From positions 1 through 23,933 of IMG/VR virus record IMGVR_UViG_3300048625_000039: a DNA stretch of 23,933 bases, one strand, 5' to 3'. Every line of letters begins with the position of its first letter. The stretch's first letter is position 1. Origin of the DNA: a virus. Shown piece after piece: positions 3,198 to 12,604 of this stretch. The notes under the pieces were generated by a model that saw only the letters and a list, made by a program, of their open reading frames with translations, made no database searches and had not been told where the DNA came from. The position numbers and the translations under genes are program-made.

Positions 3198-3364
3198 TCT
3201 GTAACCACCGTAAAAACTTTGCTTTTGCTGAAATGATGCAAACATTTTGAAGTGCGAATGGCGCACCAATCACGGCCAAGGCTGCGGCCTTTGACTTTTA
3301 TTATCTGGCTACCCATCAAAATCACATCGCCTGTTTTCAGTTGAAAAAATGTCTTTTCTTTCAT
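3194..3364 (-). CDS. Small basic beta-rich protein (56 aa)
   Basis: The translation MKEKTFFQLKTGDVILMGSQ continues with IIKVKGRSLGRDWCAIRTSK and ends VFTVVTE. Alternating hydrophobic residues suggest a small beta-barrel of KOW or SH3-like size, which is an inference from pattern only. No family is recognised. Both ends form ATGA overlaps: the start with the ninB stop (3361-3364), and the stop with the start of the 153-aa gene (3194-3197). That geometry is the main support. Confidence 0.65.
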   Translation of the reverse strand: MKEKTFFQLKTGDVILMGSQIIKVKGRSLGRDWCAIRTSKCLHHFSKSKVFTVVTE

Positions 3365-3774
3365 ATCGTTTCCTTTAGTTCAATACCATTTTCAGCACAC
3401 CAAGCCAACAAGAATTCAACAAACTCGCTTGCTTGTTCTTTTGTGAAGTTTCTTGTTTGCATCCCAAGCTGGACAATGCCATCACCAGACAAATTAGGTA
3501 TTACTTTGCCTGCTGACAACCCTTTTTCTTTGCAAAACTCTTGGACTAAAAGTCGTTTCCAGTCTTCCGATGACCACTTAGCGCCCATGTGCTGCGCTTG
3601 TTTGGCAATGTCACCAATGATGGCGTGAAATTTCTCGTTTTGTTCGTTGCTTCTTTGTTTGTATTTGATTTCTACCTGAAATTGCTTTCCAGCTTTCAAT
3701 CCGTTAAGACACTTTGACCAAGCATCACGAAATGCCGCAAGTCCTTGCTGTTCATCATCTAAATAAAATTTCAT
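3361..3774 (-). CDS. ninB: NinB-like recombination protein
   Basis: Lambda NinB (Orf) is a recombination mediator that binds single-stranded DNA and can replace RecFOR. This 137-aa product has the family hallmarks: RSNEQNEKFHAIIGDIAKQ at about residues 41-59, then KWSSEDWKRLLVQEF, and a C-terminal helix pair TKEQASEFVEFLLAWCAENG. Its length is close to lambda NinB (about 146 aa). It lies between a homing-endonuclease-like gene (ATGA overlap upstream) and a small unknown gene (ATGA overlap downstream). It complements the ERF/YqaJ set on the other strand. Confidence 0.9.
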   Translation of the reverse strand: MKFYLDDEQQGLAAFRDAWSKCLNGLKAGKQFQVEIKYKQRSNEQNEKFHAIIGDIAKQAQHMGAKWSSEDWKRLLVQEFCKEKGLSAGKVIPNLSGDGIVQLGMQTRNFTKEQASEFVEFLLAWCAENGIELKETI

Positions 3775-4268
3775 GCGCGTAACTCAGGGCTGAATGTGTG
3801 AAATTTCTTTTTTCCATCAATGTATGCTTGATGAGCTTCTTCAGGCGTTTTGTAGTAACCAAGACTTTTTGTTTTTCCATCTATCATGATCTTTGCTTGC
3901 CAGTTCTTTGTTTTTGGATGAAAGTAAGCACCTTTAAAACCTGACATTGCCTTGGTTTTTATGCTTATGTTTTGCAAGTTTTGACCATAAGTTGCACAAC
4001 GCAAATTGACAATTTTGTTGTTTAACTTGTTGCCATCTATGTGGTCAATAGCAATGGGCCATTCATTATGTTCATAGAACCAAGCCAATCTATGCAGATA
4101 GTACAAATGCCCATCAATGTGCATCCGTACATATCCATTCTTAGCTGGTTTAGCTATTACCAAACCAGATTTGATGTTTGCAACAGAAACAAGCCTAAAG
4201 AAATTGCCAGTTTCTTTGTCATAGGAAACAAGTTCTTTCAATCGTTCGTTTGTAAGATTTGATTTCAT
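3771..4268 (-). CDS. HNH endonuclease with AP2-like DNA-binding domain
   Basis: A probable free-standing homing endonuclease. Residues about 58-100 hold the HNH core: LHRLAWFYEHNEWP, then the DHIDGN motif at 75-80, NKIVNLR, and ATYGQNLQN. Residues about 109-157 form an AP2-like unit (SGFKGAYFHPKTKNWQAKI, SLGYYKTPEEAHQAY). The first 50 residues resemble the usual 'L...L.YD..TG.F.R' lead-in of this group. The stop overlaps the ninB start by ATGA. A 24-base gap precedes it after the DUF6378 gene, with a poor ribosome site. Such genes are mobile and often inserted between functional genes without harming them. Confidence 0.9.
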   Translation of the reverse strand: MKSNLTNERLKELVSYDKETGNFFRLVSVANIKSGLVIAKPAKNGYVRMHIDGHLYYLHRLAWFYEHNEWPIAIDHIDGNKLNNKIVNLRCATYGQNLQNISIKTKAMSGFKGAYFHPKTKNWQAKIMIDGKTKSLGYYKTPEEAHQAYIDGKKKFHTFSPELRA

Positions 4269-4292
4269 AATAGCATTGTATCATGATATTTC

Positions 4293-4547
4293 TTACTTGA
4301 GTCTATCTGCTTCCAAAGTAGCGTAGCCAGCAATGTCGTGCCAATGGTCATGAACGTTTGGGTTGCCGTTCAAAATGCGAGCGATCTTGTGAGCAATCAT
4401 GTCCAAAGCTTCTCGTTGTGTTGCAGATAAAACACCATAACCATGTGCATTGAACATTTGACATTTGATGCTTTGAGCAATCAATGCGTGAGTTTCAAAA
4501 TTGCCATGTGTCTTTTGGCGTTCTTCCAATGTGTCTTCAATGCTCAT
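4293..4547 (-). CDS. DUF6378-like phage protein (84 aa)
   Basis: The sequence runs MSIEDTLEERQKTHGNFETH, SAT(Q)REALDMIAHKIARIL, and HDHWHDIAGYATLEADR. The 'ER...HG.F', 'QREALDMIA.KI.RI..G' and 'DHW.DIAGYA.L' blocks are the signature of the DUF6378 group. Its function is not known; the His/Asp pattern resembles nucleotide-handling MazG/HD-type helices, but I do not claim activity. It is coupled to the upstream nuclease gene by ATGA. The first codons (ATGAG...GAAGACACATTG) resemble the start of the repeat protein at 5896-6390. Confidence 0.85.
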   Translation of the reverse strand: MSIEDTLEERQKTHGNFETHALIAQSIKCQMFNAHGYGVLSATQREALDMIAHKIARILNGNPNVHDHWHDIAGYATLEADRLK

Positions 4548-5010: not shown

Positions 5011-5892
5011 TTAGTCCTTAATGCTGTGGGCAATAACAGGACCGAGCTTTTGCAACTGATAGCCGTGTTGTGTTTTCAAAAGCGTCAATCCAGCGTTGCT
5101 GATTGCCAGCAAAACCCCCTTTGGTATTTCATCCGTCAGCGGCTTGCGTTGTTGTGGTGTGGTGTAGTAGGCAGATTCAAGTATCTTCCGAACATTGTTG
5201 TCAAGCGTGAAACCTTCAAGCACCGTGAACACAGCGTCTTTTAAAGACTGCGCCACAGGCTCACCCTGCTCTTGCTTTACTGAAAAAGAATTCGCCCTTG
5301 CAAATCTAACGCCAGCATGAAAAGAGGCGTAGTTGTCCGATTGCTCTGCCGCAATTTCAACATCATTAGATTCAGGCTCAAGCCAAAATAGTTCACCAAT
5401 TTGCTCTGCCGCGTATTCACCAAAATTGTTTCCGTCCCACTTAACCAGCGTCTTTCCTGACGTAGAAGTAGCCCACACAACACAAAGTTCATCGGTTTCA
5501 ATACAGCGCAAAATATTCCCTCGGCGTAGTTTCACAGGCTCACCCTGCTCTTGCTTTAACGATTCAAAGAATTCATCGTTATTAATTTGGCCTTCCCACT
5601 TTTGCTTTGGCTTCTTTTGTTCGGCTAGTGCCTCCAAAATACCAATCACATCTCCCACTGTTGCACCATCTCCAGCGCGTTCAAGAATGGCAAGCAGACA
5701 ATATCCAACATCTTCAAACTCTCTGATACGTTCTTTGCTCACAAGCTCACCCTGCTCTTGCTTGGCTAGTGCTTCTTCTATAGCTGCAAGCACGTTTTCA
5801 TTGACCAATCCAATGCCAATCGAACGCAAGCACCATTGTTTGATGTGATTCAGTTCATCAAGCGCCAGCTTCATTGTTTCTTCGGTGTTCAT
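5011..5892 (-). CDS. KQEQGEPV-repeat protein 1 (293 aa), unknown function
   Basis: The first of three tandem related genes in sequence order, and the last transcribed. The N-terminal helical part (MNTEETMKLALDELNHIKQW ... AAIEEALA) leads into KQEQGELVS at about residue 44. Further copies KQEQGEPVK and KQEQGEPVA occur near residues 113 and 207. The C-terminal end has YYTTPQQRKPLT followed by a short helical tail. Between the repeat tags lie unrelated segments, for example a beta-rich stretch (LRRGNILRCIETDELCVVWA). Proteins with 'EPVAWM ... YTTPPQR' tags are widespread in phages of Burkholderiales-type hosts, but no function is established to my knowledge. The ribosome site AAGGAG precedes the upstream stop (GGAGTAAGACATG). 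Confidence 0.82.
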   Translation of the reverse strand: MNTEETMKLALDELNHIKQWCLRSIGIGLVNENVLAAIEEALAKQEQGELVSKERIREFEDVGYCLLAILERAGDGATVGDVIGILEALAEQKKPKQKWEGQINNDEFFESLKQEQGEPVKLRRGNILRCIETDELCVVWATSTSGKTLVKWDGNNFGEYAAEQIGELFWLEPESNDVEIAAEQSDNYASFHAGVRFARANSFSVKQEQGEPVAQSLKDAVFTVLEGFTLDNNVRKILESAYYTTPQQRKPLTDEIPKGVLLAISNAGLTLLKTQHGYQLQKLGPVIAHSIKD

Positions 5893-7075
5893 GTCTTACT
5901 CCTTAATGTCGTGGGCGTCTTCAACCATATCAATCAAAATAGATGGTGCATCCCATTTAGGCTCGTATTTTTTAAACTTTATGAGCAAGTCAAGTCGTTG
6001 CTTATGTGTCAGCGGTTTGCGTTGTTGTGGTGTGGTGTAGAGAGGAATTGTGTAAGTTGATTTTTCAAGGCCAGTGTCTAAGCGTTGCAAAACTCCACCA
6101 TAGGGGTTCATCCACGCCACAGGCTCACCTTGTTCTTGATGGGCTAACTCAGCCTCAAGTTCATCAATACGCTTTGCCATACGCTGTTGTTCTTTAATCA
6201 TCTCAGCTATTGCATCGCGCTGAAACATCCACGCTACAGGCTCACCCTGCTCTTGCTTGACCATATCGAGGTTGTCCTCGCAATGGTTGGCTAGTGCTTC
6301 TTCTAGGGCTTTGATGGCGGCATTTGTTTTTGAAAGTTGTGAATCTTCCAATGCGTCAAGCGCCAGCTTCAATGTGTCTTCGACACTCATGTCTTACTCC
6401 TGCTTCTCTTGTCGGGCGGTCAGTCCTGATGTCATGTTGTCAATCTGCGTGAGCACGCCAATGAGGTTATCAAAAGGCTCCCACTGTGGCGCGGTGGATT
6501 TGTAGTGCTTTTTCCAAATAGCGTCTGCAAGTCGCCTTGCATAACCATAGGCATCAGGTTGCTGTAAAGATGTTGTGGGCAAGTTTGTGTAGAGGGGCTG
6601 CCAATTCCCGCCGTGAGGTGCGCTATCAAATTTAGGCTTGACCCGCTTGTCAGTATATTCAAACATCCACGCCACAGGCTCACTCTGCTCTTGCTTGAAT
6701 TGTGGTGTGGTGTAGAGCTTGTCACCATCTTTTAGCAACAAACCTTGATTTGGAATTAAGTCAACGTGACCTATGTCATCATCTTCATGGAACACACCCA
6801 CGGGCTCACCCCCGCGCGTAGCGCTTTGCTCTTGCTTTGGTTGTGTGTACACATCTTCCGTCAATAACTGATTAGCAATTTTTGCAATATGTGGCAAGCT
6901 GTTGATAGTTGTACTACCAGTAGCTATGTCGTAAATTATGCAAATTAAATCTCTTTGTTGTTTCGTGAATGGTCGTTGTTTTGTTTTCTTATTGGCTTCG
7001 GGTTTGTAGTCCCAAGGCTCACCAATGTAATTTTTTGCTACAGGCTCACCCACGTTTACGCTTTGCTCTTGCTTG
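5255..7075. repeat. Eight dispersed copies of a ~23-base tag encoding KQEQ(G/S)EPV
   Basis: On the plus strand the consensus ACAGGCTCACCCTGCTCTTG plus CTT appears at about 5255-5278, 5534-5557, 5741-5763, 6119-6139, 6236-6258, 6674-6697, 6800-6838 and 7040-7075. The last two carry GC-rich insertions between the halves (encoding ATRGG and VNV between QS and EPV). A second tag (TTGTTGTGGTGTGGTGTA, encoding YTTPQQ) occurs at about 5150-5166 and 6021-6038, and a shorter form near 6701-6715. All copies are in the same reading frame of three adjacent genes. Confidence 0.85.
5896..6390 (-). CDS. KQEQGEPV-repeat protein 2 (164 aa), unknown function
   Basis: The middle paralogue. The N-terminus MSVEDTLKLALDALEDSQLS shares 14 identical bases (AAGCTGGCGCTTGA) with the start region of protein 1. 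Repeat tags KQEQGEPVAWM (about residue 46) and HQEQGEPVAWM (about 85) flank a coiled-coil segment (IAEMIKEQQRMAKRIDELEA). A second variable segment ends in PLYTTPQQRKPLT and a C-terminal domain (HKQRLDLLIKFKKYEPKW ... DMVEDAHDIKE). The last residues and the stop/ribosome site/start junction resemble those of protein 1, which points to gene duplication. Function is unknown. The ribosome site is CAGGAG, just before the upstream stop. Confidence 0.82.
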   Translation of the reverse strand: MSVEDTLKLALDALEDSQLSKTNAAIKALEEALANHCEDNLDMVKQEQGEPVAWMFQRDAIAEMIKEQQRMAKRIDELEAELAHQEQGEPVAWMNPYGGVLQRLDTGLEKSTYTIPLYTTPQQRKPLTHKQRLDLLIKFKKYEPKWDAPSILIDMVEDAHDIKE

Positions 7076-7215
7076 GCTAGTGCTTGGTCAATTCTTTCAA
7101 TTGCTTCATCAGCTTCATGTGCAATCATGTACGGTTGATTGCCAAGCGGTGTCTCATGTCGGTAGCGCCAAATGATTTGACGCGCCAGTTTTGCAGCAGA
7201 TTTCAAATCACTCAT
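6394..7215 (-). CDS. KQEQ-repeat protein 3 (273 aa), unknown function
   Basis: The longest-diverged paralogue, first transcribed of the three. The N-terminus MSDLKSAAKLARQIIWRYRH leads through a helical domain into ALAKQEQSVNVGEPVA. A long segment (TKQRPFTKQQRDLICIIYDI) precedes PKQEQSATRGGEPVG, then a short segment ends in YTTPQFKQEQSEPVAWMFEY and a C-terminal domain of about 80 residues. An earlier TTG start six codons upstream exists. The ATG at 7215 is preferred because AGGGGA lies seven bases before it. The first seven bases overlap the end of the upstream HNH gene. Confidence 0.8.
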   Translation of the reverse strand: MSDLKSAAKLARQIIWRYRHETPLGNQPYMIAHEADEAIERIDQALAKQEQSVNVGEPVAKNYIGEPWDYKPEANKKTKQRPFTKQQRDLICIIYDIATGSTTINSLPHIAKIANQLLTEDVYTQPKQEQSATRGGEPVGVFHEDDDIGHVDLIPNQGLLLKDGDKLYTTPQFKQEQSEPVAWMFEYTDKRVKPKFDSAPHGGNWQPLYTNLPTTSLQQPDAYGYARRLADAIWKKHYKSTAPQWEPFDNLIGVLTQIDNMTSGLTARQEKQE

Positions 7216-7711
7216 ATCTATTCCCCTTTGCAATGTTTTGTGATGCCGTAATCACTTGTAGATTGTGCTGAGAATGAAAGCCTGAAACATTCTTGCCTTG
7301 CAATGGAGCAATGTGATCTACATGAAACTTAACGCCGCCTCTGCTTAAAACTTCAGCGACTTCGTACCACATTGCAATCTCTTGTTTGTCAGCCCAAGCT
7401 GGTGTTAGTTTTATCTCTGCCGCCCTGCGCTTTGCAGACCTTGCATTGACAACAGCCTTGTTGGTTTTTGCATAACAACTTACGTACTTTTGTTTTTTCT
7501 CTTTGTTTTCTAAGTACCAGTTCTTAGCATTAGCTTTTACTGTTTCAAGAAGAAAGTCACGATTCTTTTGCTGCCAAATTGAAATCGTAGCGTTTCTGCA
7601 TGATTTGCAATGACTTAAATAGCCATCTTTGCTAACTTTCTGTCTGTAAAAGTCAGCCAGATTTTTTTCAACAAGGCATTTGTTGCAAGTTTTTTTAGCT
7701 TCTTTACTCAT
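7208..7711 (-). CDS. HNH endonuclease with N-terminal zinc finger
   Basis: A 167-aa probable homing or accessory endonuclease. Cys9, Cys12, Cys35 and Cys38 (CNKC ... CKSC) form an N-terminal zinc ribbon of the kind seen in many phage HNH proteins ('C..C...K....F'). A basic coiled middle (about 60-100) links to the HNH core: FHVDHIAPLQG at 129-139, then FHSQHNLQVITASQNIAKGN. The start forms an ATGA overlap with the upstream 79-aa gene, and the 3' end provides the ribosome site of repeat protein 3 (AAGGGGAATAG). It lies next to the KQEQ repeat array, which may mark a recombination hot spot. Confidence 0.88.
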   Translation of the reverse strand: MSKEAKKTCNKCLVEKNLADFYRQKVSKDGYLSHCKSCRNATISIWQQKNRDFLLETVKANAKNWYLENKEKKQKYVSCYAKTNKAVVNARSAKRRAAEIKLTPAWADKQEIAMWYEVAEVLSRGGVKFHVDHIAPLQGKNVSGFHSQHNLQVITASQNIAKGNRYE

Positions 7712-11083: not shown

Positions 11084-11251
11084 ATGAAACCTTCTTACTT
11101 TCAAACCCCCCGCACTCTTGAAGATTCCACGTTTTATTCATGGGCTGACCCAATCATGAAACCAGACACGGAAAAAACACATCCAGCAGATACGGTTATC
11201 TACATCTTGTTGGCAATCACAATCGTCTTAGTTTTTTGGGTGCTCAAATGA
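11084..11251 (+). CDS. Small C-terminally anchored membrane protein (55 aa)
   Basis: The product starts MKPSYFQTPRTLEDSTFYSW and ends with one membrane segment (TVIYILLAITIVLVFWVLK). The 'PRTL....F......I' N-terminus plus a terminal span is a layout I recall as first gene in early operons of similar phages; function unknown. AGGA lies nine bases before this ATG. A longer reading from 10967 would run through the promoter and is rejected. The stop forms ATGA with the ERF start. Confidence 0.75.
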   Translation: MKPSYFQTPRTLEDSTFYSWADPIMKPDTEKTHPADTVIYILLAITIVLVFWVLK

Positions 11252-11796
11252 AACAAATCGCAACAGCTTTAGTCAAGGCTCAAAAAGCCTTTGGTCCTGC
11301 TTTAAAGACCGCTACAAACCCGCATTTTCGTTCACGCTATGCTGACCTATCCGCTTGCGTTGAAGCTGTCATTGACGCTTTAAACGATAACGGAATTGCA
11401 ATGATTCAGAAATGCTACGACTGCAATACAGGAATCATGGTTGAGACTGTGTTTATTCACGAATCAGGTGAAATGCTTGAATGCGGTATTTTGCAAGTTC
11501 CTGCCAGCAAACAAGACCCACAGGGTTATGGTTCTGCGCTTACTTACGCTAGGCGCTACAGTTTGATGGCAGCTTGTGGAATTGCTCCAGAAGATGATGA
11601 TGGCAATGCAGCTAGTCGTAAACCAACAATTGACAGCTCAATAATGGCTGACCATATCACGGCTATTCAAGACGCAACTGACGAAGCATCATTAAAAGCA
11701 GCTTACCAATCAGCTTACAAAGCCTGTGGCATAGATGCAAACTGGCAGAAAAAAATTATTGCAGTTAAAGACGCAAAGAAAGCGAGTTTGAAATGA
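11248..11796 (+). CDS. erf: ERF-family single-strand annealing protein
   Basis: ERF proteins (P22 Erf) anneal complementary single strands during phage recombination and genome circularisation. The 182-aa product has the family core: FRSRYADLSACVEAVIDALN, NGIAMIQKCY, and the hallmark GSALTYARRYSLMAACGI followed by APEDDDGNAA. The C-terminal region (about 125-182) is a helical tail of the type that binds partners. It is coupled by ATGA to the gene on each side, and sits with the YqaJ nuclease and an SSB-like protein as a complete annealase-exonuclease set. Confidence 0.93.
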   Translation: MKQIATALVKAQKAFGPALKTATNPHFRSRYADLSACVEAVIDALNDNGIAMIQKCYDCNTGIMVETVFIHESGEMLECGILQVPASKQDPQGYGSALTYARRYSLMAACGIAPEDDDGNAASRKPTIDSSIMADHITAIQDATDEASLKAAYQSAYKACGIDANWQKKIIAVKDAKKASLK

Positions 11797-11975
11797 TGAT
11801 TGAGTTTTACAAAATGAAACAGCCAAGCACATTGGTTTCAATTGACCAATACGGAAAAATTCATATTTTTTGGGATGCTATTGAAGAAAAAGCAAAAGAA
11901 TACAAGCCACAAGGTTATAACGAAACAAATACGGCTTGGGCGTATGTTTTGATAAAAGTAAGGGATGAATCATGA
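11793..11975 (+). CDS. Unknown small protein (60 aa)
   Basis: The translation reads MMIEFYKMKQPSTLVSIDQY, then GKIHIFWDAIEEKAKEYKPQ and a helical end. It resembles a small alpha/beta unit and has no recognised family. Both ends form ATGA overlaps, with erf and the YqaJ gene. Being between the annealase and the nuclease, it may belong to the same recombination complex, but nothing in the residues proves it. Confidence 0.68.
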   Translation: MMIEFYKMKQPSTLVSIDQYGKIHIFWDAIEEKAKEYKPQGYNETNTAWAYVLIKVRDES

Positions 11976-12604
11976 TTGAACAAGGTTCACCAGAATGGTT
12001 TTCTCAACGTTTGGGCAAAGTGACCGCCAGCCGTGTTGCTGACGTTATTGCAAAGACTAAAACGGGTTACAGCACCAGTCGCGACAACTACATGGCTCAA
12101 TTGGTATGTGAAAGAATGACCAACACCGTGGCCGAATCGTATTCCAATGCAGCAATGCAATGGGGCACAGAAACAGAACCATTGGCGCGTGCAGCGTATG
12201 AGGCTTATGCTGACGTTTTAGTTGATGAAGTTGCCATGATCAATCATCCAACGATTGAGGCTGCTGGCGCTTCTCCTGACGGTCTTGTTGGTGATGTTGG
12301 TCAGCTTGAGATTAAGTGTCCAAACACATCAACGCACATTGATACACTTTTAAGTCAATCTGTGCCGTCAAAGTACAACACGCAAATGCAATGGCAAATG
12401 GCTTGTACTGGTAGATATTGGTGTGACTTTGCATCTTTTGACCCAAGGATGCCAGAAGACCTTCAATTGTTTGTAAAACGTGTTGATCGTGACAACGCTT
12501 ACATTGCAATGCTTGAAGAAGAAGTCAAAAAGTTCTTGGTTGAACTGGATGGCAAAATTAAGAAACTTAACGAACTGAAAGAGAAAAATGGCAATTATTT
12601 ATGA
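11972..12604 (+). CDS. YqaJ-type viral recombinase nuclease
   Basis: A lambda-exonuclease-like PD-(D/E)XK nuclease that resects double strands 5' to 3' to feed the annealase. The 210-aa product opens with EQGSPEWFSQRLGKVTASRV, the conserved substrate-end motif. The active site follows: ASPDGLVGD (catalytic Asp) and LEIKCP (ExK), then NTQMQWQMACTGRYWCD. The length is close to lambda Exo (226 aa). A clear AGGG lies before the ATG, and the start overlaps the upstream stop. The last 17 bases overlap the SSB-like gene. Confidence 0.93.
   Translation: MIEQGSPEWFSQRLGKVTASRVADVIAKTKTGYSTSRDNYMAQLVCERMTNTVAESYSNAAMQWGTETEPLARAAYEAYADVLVDEVAMINHPTIEAAGASPDGLVGDVGQLEIKCPNTSTHIDTLLSQSVPSKYNTQMQWQMACTGRYWCDFASFDPRMPEDLQLFVKRVDRDNAYIAMLEEEVKKFLVELDGKIKKLNELKEKNGNYL

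Follow-up and report, generated by a model that had tools for sequence, protein, structure and literature searches.

Why would three adjacent phage genes be punctuated again and again by the same short coding sequences? The question is raised by IMG/VR virus record IMGVR_UViG_3300048625_000039, a 23.9-kb stretch of DNA (the window, analysed over all of its 23,933 nucleotides), in which an array of three coupled minus-strand genes at positions 5011 to 7215 contains eight tags of the form KQEQ(G)EPV (Q-type tags), all direct, on the minus strand and in frame, and further tags of the form YTTPQQRKP (Y-type tags). The original prediction, made from this DNA, was that the tags act as in-frame joints at which protein segments (cassettes) are swapped or added. 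Comparison with relatives supported this view, because near-identical cassettes were found in unrelated contexts with breakpoints at the tags. With a probability of about 0.8, the genes encode mosaic accessory proteins built from in-frame cassettes that are exchanged by recombination at DNA joints.

The eight Q tags of about 23 bases and the YTTPQQRKP tags claimed for the three genes were all located by coordinates (see the table). The 24-mer AAGCAAGAGCAGGGTGAGCCTGTG had five matches in the window at three or fewer mismatches, and the two full Y joints shared an identical 21-nt core, against 0.00 expected in dinucleotide shuffles in both cases. Gene 3 contained, in order, an N-cassette, KQEQ-SVNV-GEPV, a cassette, KQEQ-SATRG-GEPV, a cassette, YTTPQ, KQEQSEPV, and a C-cassette; gene 2 contained an N-cassette with NHCEDNLDMV, KQEQGEPV, a coiled-coil cassette, HQEQGEPV, a cassette, YTTPQQRKP, and a C-cassette. 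The gene junctions had also been described as common to the array, and AGGAGTAAGACATG was indeed present at both the 3/2 and the 2/1 boundary; junction sequences repeat within the window (repeat families D6 and D9). Similarity over the N-terminal 45 or so residues was strong between genes 1 and 2 (53 nt, 83%) and loose for gene 3. Joint DNA was of the types ..ATCAAAGCCCTAGAAGAAGCACTAGCCAAGCAAGAGCAGGGTGAGCCTGTGGCGTGG (Q), CTCTACACCACACCACAACAACGCAAGCCGCTGACGGATGAGCAG (Y), and ..GCCGCCCACGGCATTAAGGAGTAAGACATG or ..CTCAAGGAGAAGAACACATGA (gene junction).

With gene 2 as query, IMG/VR yielded 85 relatives, and further scans returned several hundred loci, some on the same contigs (L-numbers label gathered loci); a catalogue of 232 non-redundant tag proteins was compiled from IMG/VR. 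Cutting these proteins at the tags, as the original prediction had proposed, gave 286 internal segments (minimum length, 18 residues), which grouped into 219 clusters; recurrence was seen for 46 of these. A total of 76 pairs of homologous internal cassettes, whose counts are not independent of one another, were at least 70% identical. Their median identity was 0.94 in the cassette, 0.21 in the left neighbor, and 0.28 in the right neighbor, with a random-pair baseline of 0.28 for N-segments and 0.33 for C-segments. Both flanks were at least 70% identical, a vertical-like pattern, in only 2 of the 76 pairs, and 31 pairs differed in ordinal position within the protein. Segment order was therefore not constant with tree-like divergence; the same cassettes occurred in different contexts, orders, and phages. 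The joints bounding swapped cassettes were Q-Y in 59 cases, Q-Q in 14, and Y-Q in 1.

At the DNA level, identity was about 0.8 over the cassette and its tags, fell to 0.40 and 0.43 over the 15 nt immediately outside them, and was about 0.30 farther out, near the baseline of 0.27 to 0.28. Examples included 156 nt at 95% DNA identity with tags at both ends (L027 and L057), 148 nt at 93% (L079 and L024), N-cassettes at 99% (L045 and L073; L058 and L048), and a C-cassette at 98% (L019 and L029). The cassettes of the window took part in the same exchange. In gene 1, the N-cassette recurred in L147 and L237 ahead of other cassettes, the KWEGQI-NDEFFESL piece recurred in L025 ahead of a different cassette, and RRGNILRCIETDELCVV had relatives in L012, L095, and L116. 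In gene 2, NHCEDNLDMVKQEQGEPV recurred in L007 and L010, NHCEDNLDMV in L006, and the C-cassette in L006, L009, and L116. The C-cassette of gene 3 occupied an internal position in L250, and the AWMFEYTDK..GGNWQPLYT stretch of the same gene recurred in L288 and L085. A stand-alone gene in L305 likewise occurred elsewhere as an internal cassette. Pooled over 42 cassette pairs, the ratio of nonsynonymous to synonymous substitution rates (dN/dS, omega) was 0.16, indicating that the cassettes are under purifying selection.

The tag DNA was conserved far beyond what the protein sequence needs, as judged from codon usage across contigs. In a degenerate scan that accepted any of the 2048 codings of KQEQGEPV, at least 146 distinct contexts were found; among the matches listed, the identical 24-mer was used in 109 of 146, and 141 of 146 had at most one synonymous difference. 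The DNA of YTTPQQRKP was identical at 46 of the 62 sites listed. Codon heterozygosity relative to background was 0.08 for KQEQGEPV, 0.16 for LYTTPQQRKPL, and 0.05 for IKALEEALAK. In a control limited to a single locus from each contig (1080 pairs of contigs, not independent of one another, although the contrast is very large), codon identity was 0.927 in the tag versus 0.40 at identical residues of other shared genes, and 0.44 in runs of at least eight identical residues in those genes. In addition, an open reading frame was present at all 202 tag cores found, so that joining one tag to another keeps the frame.

The same conservation bears on whether the tags are simply functional protein motifs, serving in interactions or as the borders of a small beta unit, with recombination incidental. 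Tags that are always in frame are what such motifs would show, and in a model of the canonical member L175, of moderate confidence, the strands start at EPVAW and end at PLYTT, placing the tags at predicted domain edges. Selection on the protein, however, leaves unexplained both the single coding at 109 of the 146 listed sites and the 93% codon identity in tags versus 40% in other genes, and the unrelated, exchanging cassettes between tags also speak against this explanation, which was judged very unlikely.

In the L175 model, the three strands between EPVAW and PLYTT form one unit, with two helices N-terminal to it and two C-terminal; the gene 2 model was helical in layout, with a long predicted helix at 58-83 for the coiled-coil-like cassette. 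These models had predicted template modeling (pTM) scores of 0.40 to 0.49, a moderate confidence at which no fold is claimed. Foldseek searches with the models gave a best PDB match at an E value of 0.55 and, against BFVD, significant matches to uncharacterized Caudovirales proteins only. That the fold pattern differs from one segment to the next, as originally suggested, cannot be confirmed from models of this quality.

Gene junctions constituted a third type of joint. C-termini ending in KE (mostly IKE) before the stop codon were encoded with AAGGAG in 70 of 74 genes, and the next start usually lay six bases past the first base of the stop; KEKNT-like C-termini contained AAGGAG in 48 of 53 and overlapped the next start as ATGA. 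The codons of these conserved C-terminal residues therefore also provide the Shine-Dalgarno site for the gene that follows.

The phage of the window encodes an ERF-family annealing recombinase, a YqaJ-family exonuclease, and a NinB mediator, which makes homologous recombination at the joints the likeliest mechanism. Of 34 long contigs with tags, which may be fragmentary, 15 had ERF, 4 RecT (3 above the curated cutoff), and 12 YqaJ. Phage Rad52-like proteins, including an Erf, outdo RecA on short or diverged homology in lambda growth (PMC3945230), and the minimal homology for Red and RecA is quoted at around 30 bp (PMC2327257); joints of all three types, counted together with the conserved sequence at their shoulders, are roughly 30 to 57 nt long. 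The likely agents are phage annealing recombinases (ERF or RecT) acting with the YqaJ exonuclease and NinB. In a cell occupied by two phages, or by a phage together with a prophage, recombination between matching joints would replace, add, or remove a cassette or a whole gene and would leave the reading frame and the ribosome-binding site unbroken. The crossovers themselves would fall within the tags, to judge from the alignments, and repeated crossovers there, possibly together with selection for joint function, may hold the tag DNA near-identical across diverged phages.

A second set of tags was informative about this mechanism. QPEQEPVAW (L343 to L462) was found in no fewer than 112 contexts, encoded by 36 different DNA versions, and it too swaps cassettes (11 pairs among the matches listed, median identity 0.91 versus 0.27 and 0.40 in the flanks); 20 of the 86 listed cassettes in QPEQEPVAW proteins had homologs in the first catalogue. 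The two sets belong to one mosaic system, in which QPEQEPVAW is the broader sister dialect and varies more in its tag DNA. Because the two dialects behave alike, homology-driven exchange in connected pools suits the data better than a fixed recognition sequence. This weighs against the idea of a dedicated, shufflon-like exchange system, in which the tag DNA would be recognized by a specific recombinase or nuclease. Such a system would account for the strong nucleotide conservation and the several distinct joint types, and HNH/endonuclease VII-like genes flank the array. The tags in the window, however, are all in direct orientation and keep the reading frame, a specific recombinase was absent from the scanned window proteins (co-occurrence across contigs was not systematically examined), and 36 DNA versions in at least 112 sites point to homology over a fixed recognition site, so that a dedicated system was considered very unlikely. 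The fusion of unrelated phages at repeated tags by metagenome assemblers, for which exact repeats of at least 24 nt would offer an opportunity, is extremely improbable, given that whole tag proteins recur across samples (L007/L008, L034/L035, L079/L082, L039/L041, L013/L014, and L166/L167), that array frames and Shine-Dalgarno junctions are intact, that the cassettes have an omega of 0.16, and that the tags are shorter than usual read lengths.

Several points weigh against cassette exchange by recombination at the joints. The evidence comes nearly all from assembled metagenomic contigs, crossover is deduced from comparison only, and no isolate phage with the family was found in the searches. 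Many tag contigs, which may be fragments, had no ERF or RecT match. Because the catalogue was gathered mostly through the tags, tag-less mosaics are under-sampled, and to this is added the non-independence of the pair counts. In a generic test, the ends of high-scoring segment pairs fell at tags in 18.7% of cases versus 11.4% (standard deviation, 1.3), a moderate enrichment only. Finally, the tags are also conserved as protein, and an additional protein role is possible.

The tag genes of the window are members of a large, uncatalogued family of mosaic proteins of aquatic phages. The usual layout was MSKEAMKLALEAL...IKALEEALA, KQEQGEPV(AW), one or more cassettes, LYTTPQQRKP, and LTDEQI...ARAIEAAHGIKE. 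Neither Pfam nor PHROGs gave a significant family match for the window tag proteins, and for 90 longer members, searches of Pfam, PHROGs, NCBIfam, and PADLOC found nothing beyond scattered matches to one or two of them. A megablast search of the region against annotated phages found no match; in a tblastn search of 50,697 annotated phage records, genes 1 and 2 found none and gene 3 one weak partial match. There was no match in plasmids searched with a family member, no significant match in a sequence search of solved structures, no Rfam match, and no tRNA in a tRNA search. Three relatives sit in beta-proteobacterial records; none of 399 genomes of the relevant beta-proteobacterial order contained the tag at two or fewer mismatches. 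EPVAW, QEQGEPV, YTTPQQR, and YTTPPQR had no relevant mention in the open literature, most subscription papers lying outside that search.

Table. Features of the window, with positions numbered from its first nucleotide
Feature	Position	Strand	Evidence or detail
NinB (lambda Orf-like) recombination mediator	3361-3774	minus	Pfam PF05772, E=1.2e-24
HNH-AP2 gene	3771-4268		downstream of array
Fourth gene, 67 amino acids	4804-5007	minus	DUF551-like by eye (..THWAPLP..)
Tag gene 1, 293 amino acids	5011-5892	minus	open reading frame; four Q/Y joints
Y joint YYTTPQQRKP	5140-5169	minus	
Q joint KQEQGEPV	5254-5277	minus	exact 24-mer
Q joint KQEQGEPV	5533-5556	minus	exact 24-mer
Q joint KQEQGELV	5740-5763	minus	
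Gene junction AGGAGTAAGACATG	5889-5903	minus	gene 2 stop, Shine-Dalgarno site, gene 1 start
Tag gene 2, 164 amino acids	5896-6390	minus	open reading frame
Y joint LYTTPQQRKP	6013-6042	minus	
Q joint HQEQGEPV	6118-6141	minus	
Q joint KQEQGEPV	6235-6258	minus	
Gene junction AGGAGTAAGACATG	6387-6401	minus	gene 3 stop, Shine-Dalgarno site, gene 2 start
Tag gene 3, 273 amino acids	6394-7215	minus	open reading frame; transcribed first
Partial (truncated) Y joint	6577-6594	minus	
Q joint KQEQSEPV	6673-6696	minus	
Partial Y joint LYTTPQ	6700-6717	minus	
Split Q joint KQEQ-SATRG-GEPV	6799-6837	minus	short in-frame insert
Split Q joint KQEQ-SVNV-GEPV	7039-7074	minus	short in-frame insert
Endonuclease VII/HNH-like gene	7208-7711		just upstream of array, overlapping gene 3 start
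ERF-family single-strand annealing recombinase	11236-11796	plus	Pfam PF04404, E=1.3e-21
YqaJ-family viral exonuclease	11972-12604	plus	Pfam PF09588, E=1.4e-30

Some further observations concern individual members. Small in-frame inserts recurred between QEQ and GEPV (SVNV, SVSV, SATRG, RSDSEHL, RSVSEQL, and RSDSEHLSAECV, in the window, L065, L219, L029, and L232) and resemble mini-cassettes, which would mark a second breakpoint within the Q joint. Between the sister phages L013/L014 and L016, one tag gene was identical over 635 nt but differed in its upstream half, and a cassette of the first gene was 93% identical to one in the adjacent gene, likely a recent rearrangement inside the array. 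A family member was present in an unannotated stretch of a public phage record (L342, MW202879.1, positions 1350 to 2663). Of the nuclease genes next to the array in the window, the endonuclease VII/HNH-like one overlaps the start of gene 3 and the HNH-AP2 one lies downstream; nuclease genes have been reported at exchange boundaries (PMC10448857). Cassettes resembling small known domain types by eye included a helix-turn-helix-like one in L191 (positions 3548 to 4324) and CxxC zinc-ribbon-like ones in L012, L018, L027, L033, L292, and L336. The fourth gene, despite its THWAPLP end, had no DUF551 (PF04448) match in Pfam; it stands alone in the window, and its homologs stood alone in many relatives and were fused C-terminally to a tag protein in L281 and to a longer protein in L209.

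The family is a widespread phage family outside Pfam, PHROGs, and NCBIfam, perhaps as a result of its mosaic structure, on which profile clustering would fail. Its cassettes make up a collection of small, portable phage segments, of which some are zinc-ribbon-like, coiled-coil, or DUF551-like by eye. As far as the available parts of PMC7093339 and PMC10834534 describe it, the Ea22 family of lambdoid phages (Ead_Ea22, IPR025153) is the nearest described analog: its members are accessory mosaic proteins, expressed early, with a coiled coil and unrelated C-terminal domains that include a portable DUF551, and they favor lysogeny. The tag proteins may share their layout, in which a common N-terminal/coiled-coil part is followed by unrelated C-terminal parts and a short common C-terminal end; no repeated internal tags are described for Ea22 there, whereas the tag family has three DNA-frozen joint types and tandem genes. 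Ead_Ea22 (PF13935) had no match in the window proteins or, at E values of 0.01 or below, in the 90 tag proteins, and DUF551 (PF04448) had no Pfam match among the same 90, so membership in Ea22 is unsupported. By analogy, it is possible, if somewhat doubtful, that the tag proteins act early, in the manner of Ea22, as adaptors in host interaction or regulation.

Recombination at boundary sequences and domain mosaicism are already known ideas. Short sequences shared at the boundaries of phage modules have been proposed as sites of homologous recombination (PMC3029335); those sequences lie between modules and are unidentifiable at most boundaries, whereas the tag joints are repeated in frame inside genes and at junctions. 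In the tag family the same short DNA bounds unrelated modules, and its many natural intragenic joints make the old boundary-sequence hypothesis directly testable. Studies of relaxed recombination show that Erf, RecT, and Red act on short or diverged homology, and the window encodes ERF and YqaJ, but these studies treat existing related or diverged sequences and not repeated intragenic joints (PMC3945230, PMC2327257). A survey of domain mosaicism found ongoing shuffling of fragments between phage proteins, as in the tag family, and anticipated a higher degree of mosaicism among functionally uncharacterized proteins; it covered annotated core functions, and the word "linker" is absent from its text (PMC10684548).

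Shufflons use inverted sites and a dedicated recombinase, whereas the window tags have a single orientation and no such recombinase was found among the scanned window proteins. Diversity-generating retroelements, which have a reverse transcriptase and template and variable repeats, make adenine-directed point changes; the variation seen in the tag family was replacement of whole cassettes. In elements of the Rickettsia palindromic type, an insert enters conserved genes; in the tag family this is reversed, the tag being constant and the sequence between tags variable. Repeated, in-frame, DNA-frozen joints within tandem genes appear to be a new variant. A tentative but plausible further comparison is with phase-matched exon shuffling, of which the family might be the phage counterpart: a cassette pool would be shared by diverged phages, joints would be kept since they permit exchange, and multidomain accessory proteins, probably aimed at host or competitor functions, could be quickly reassembled.
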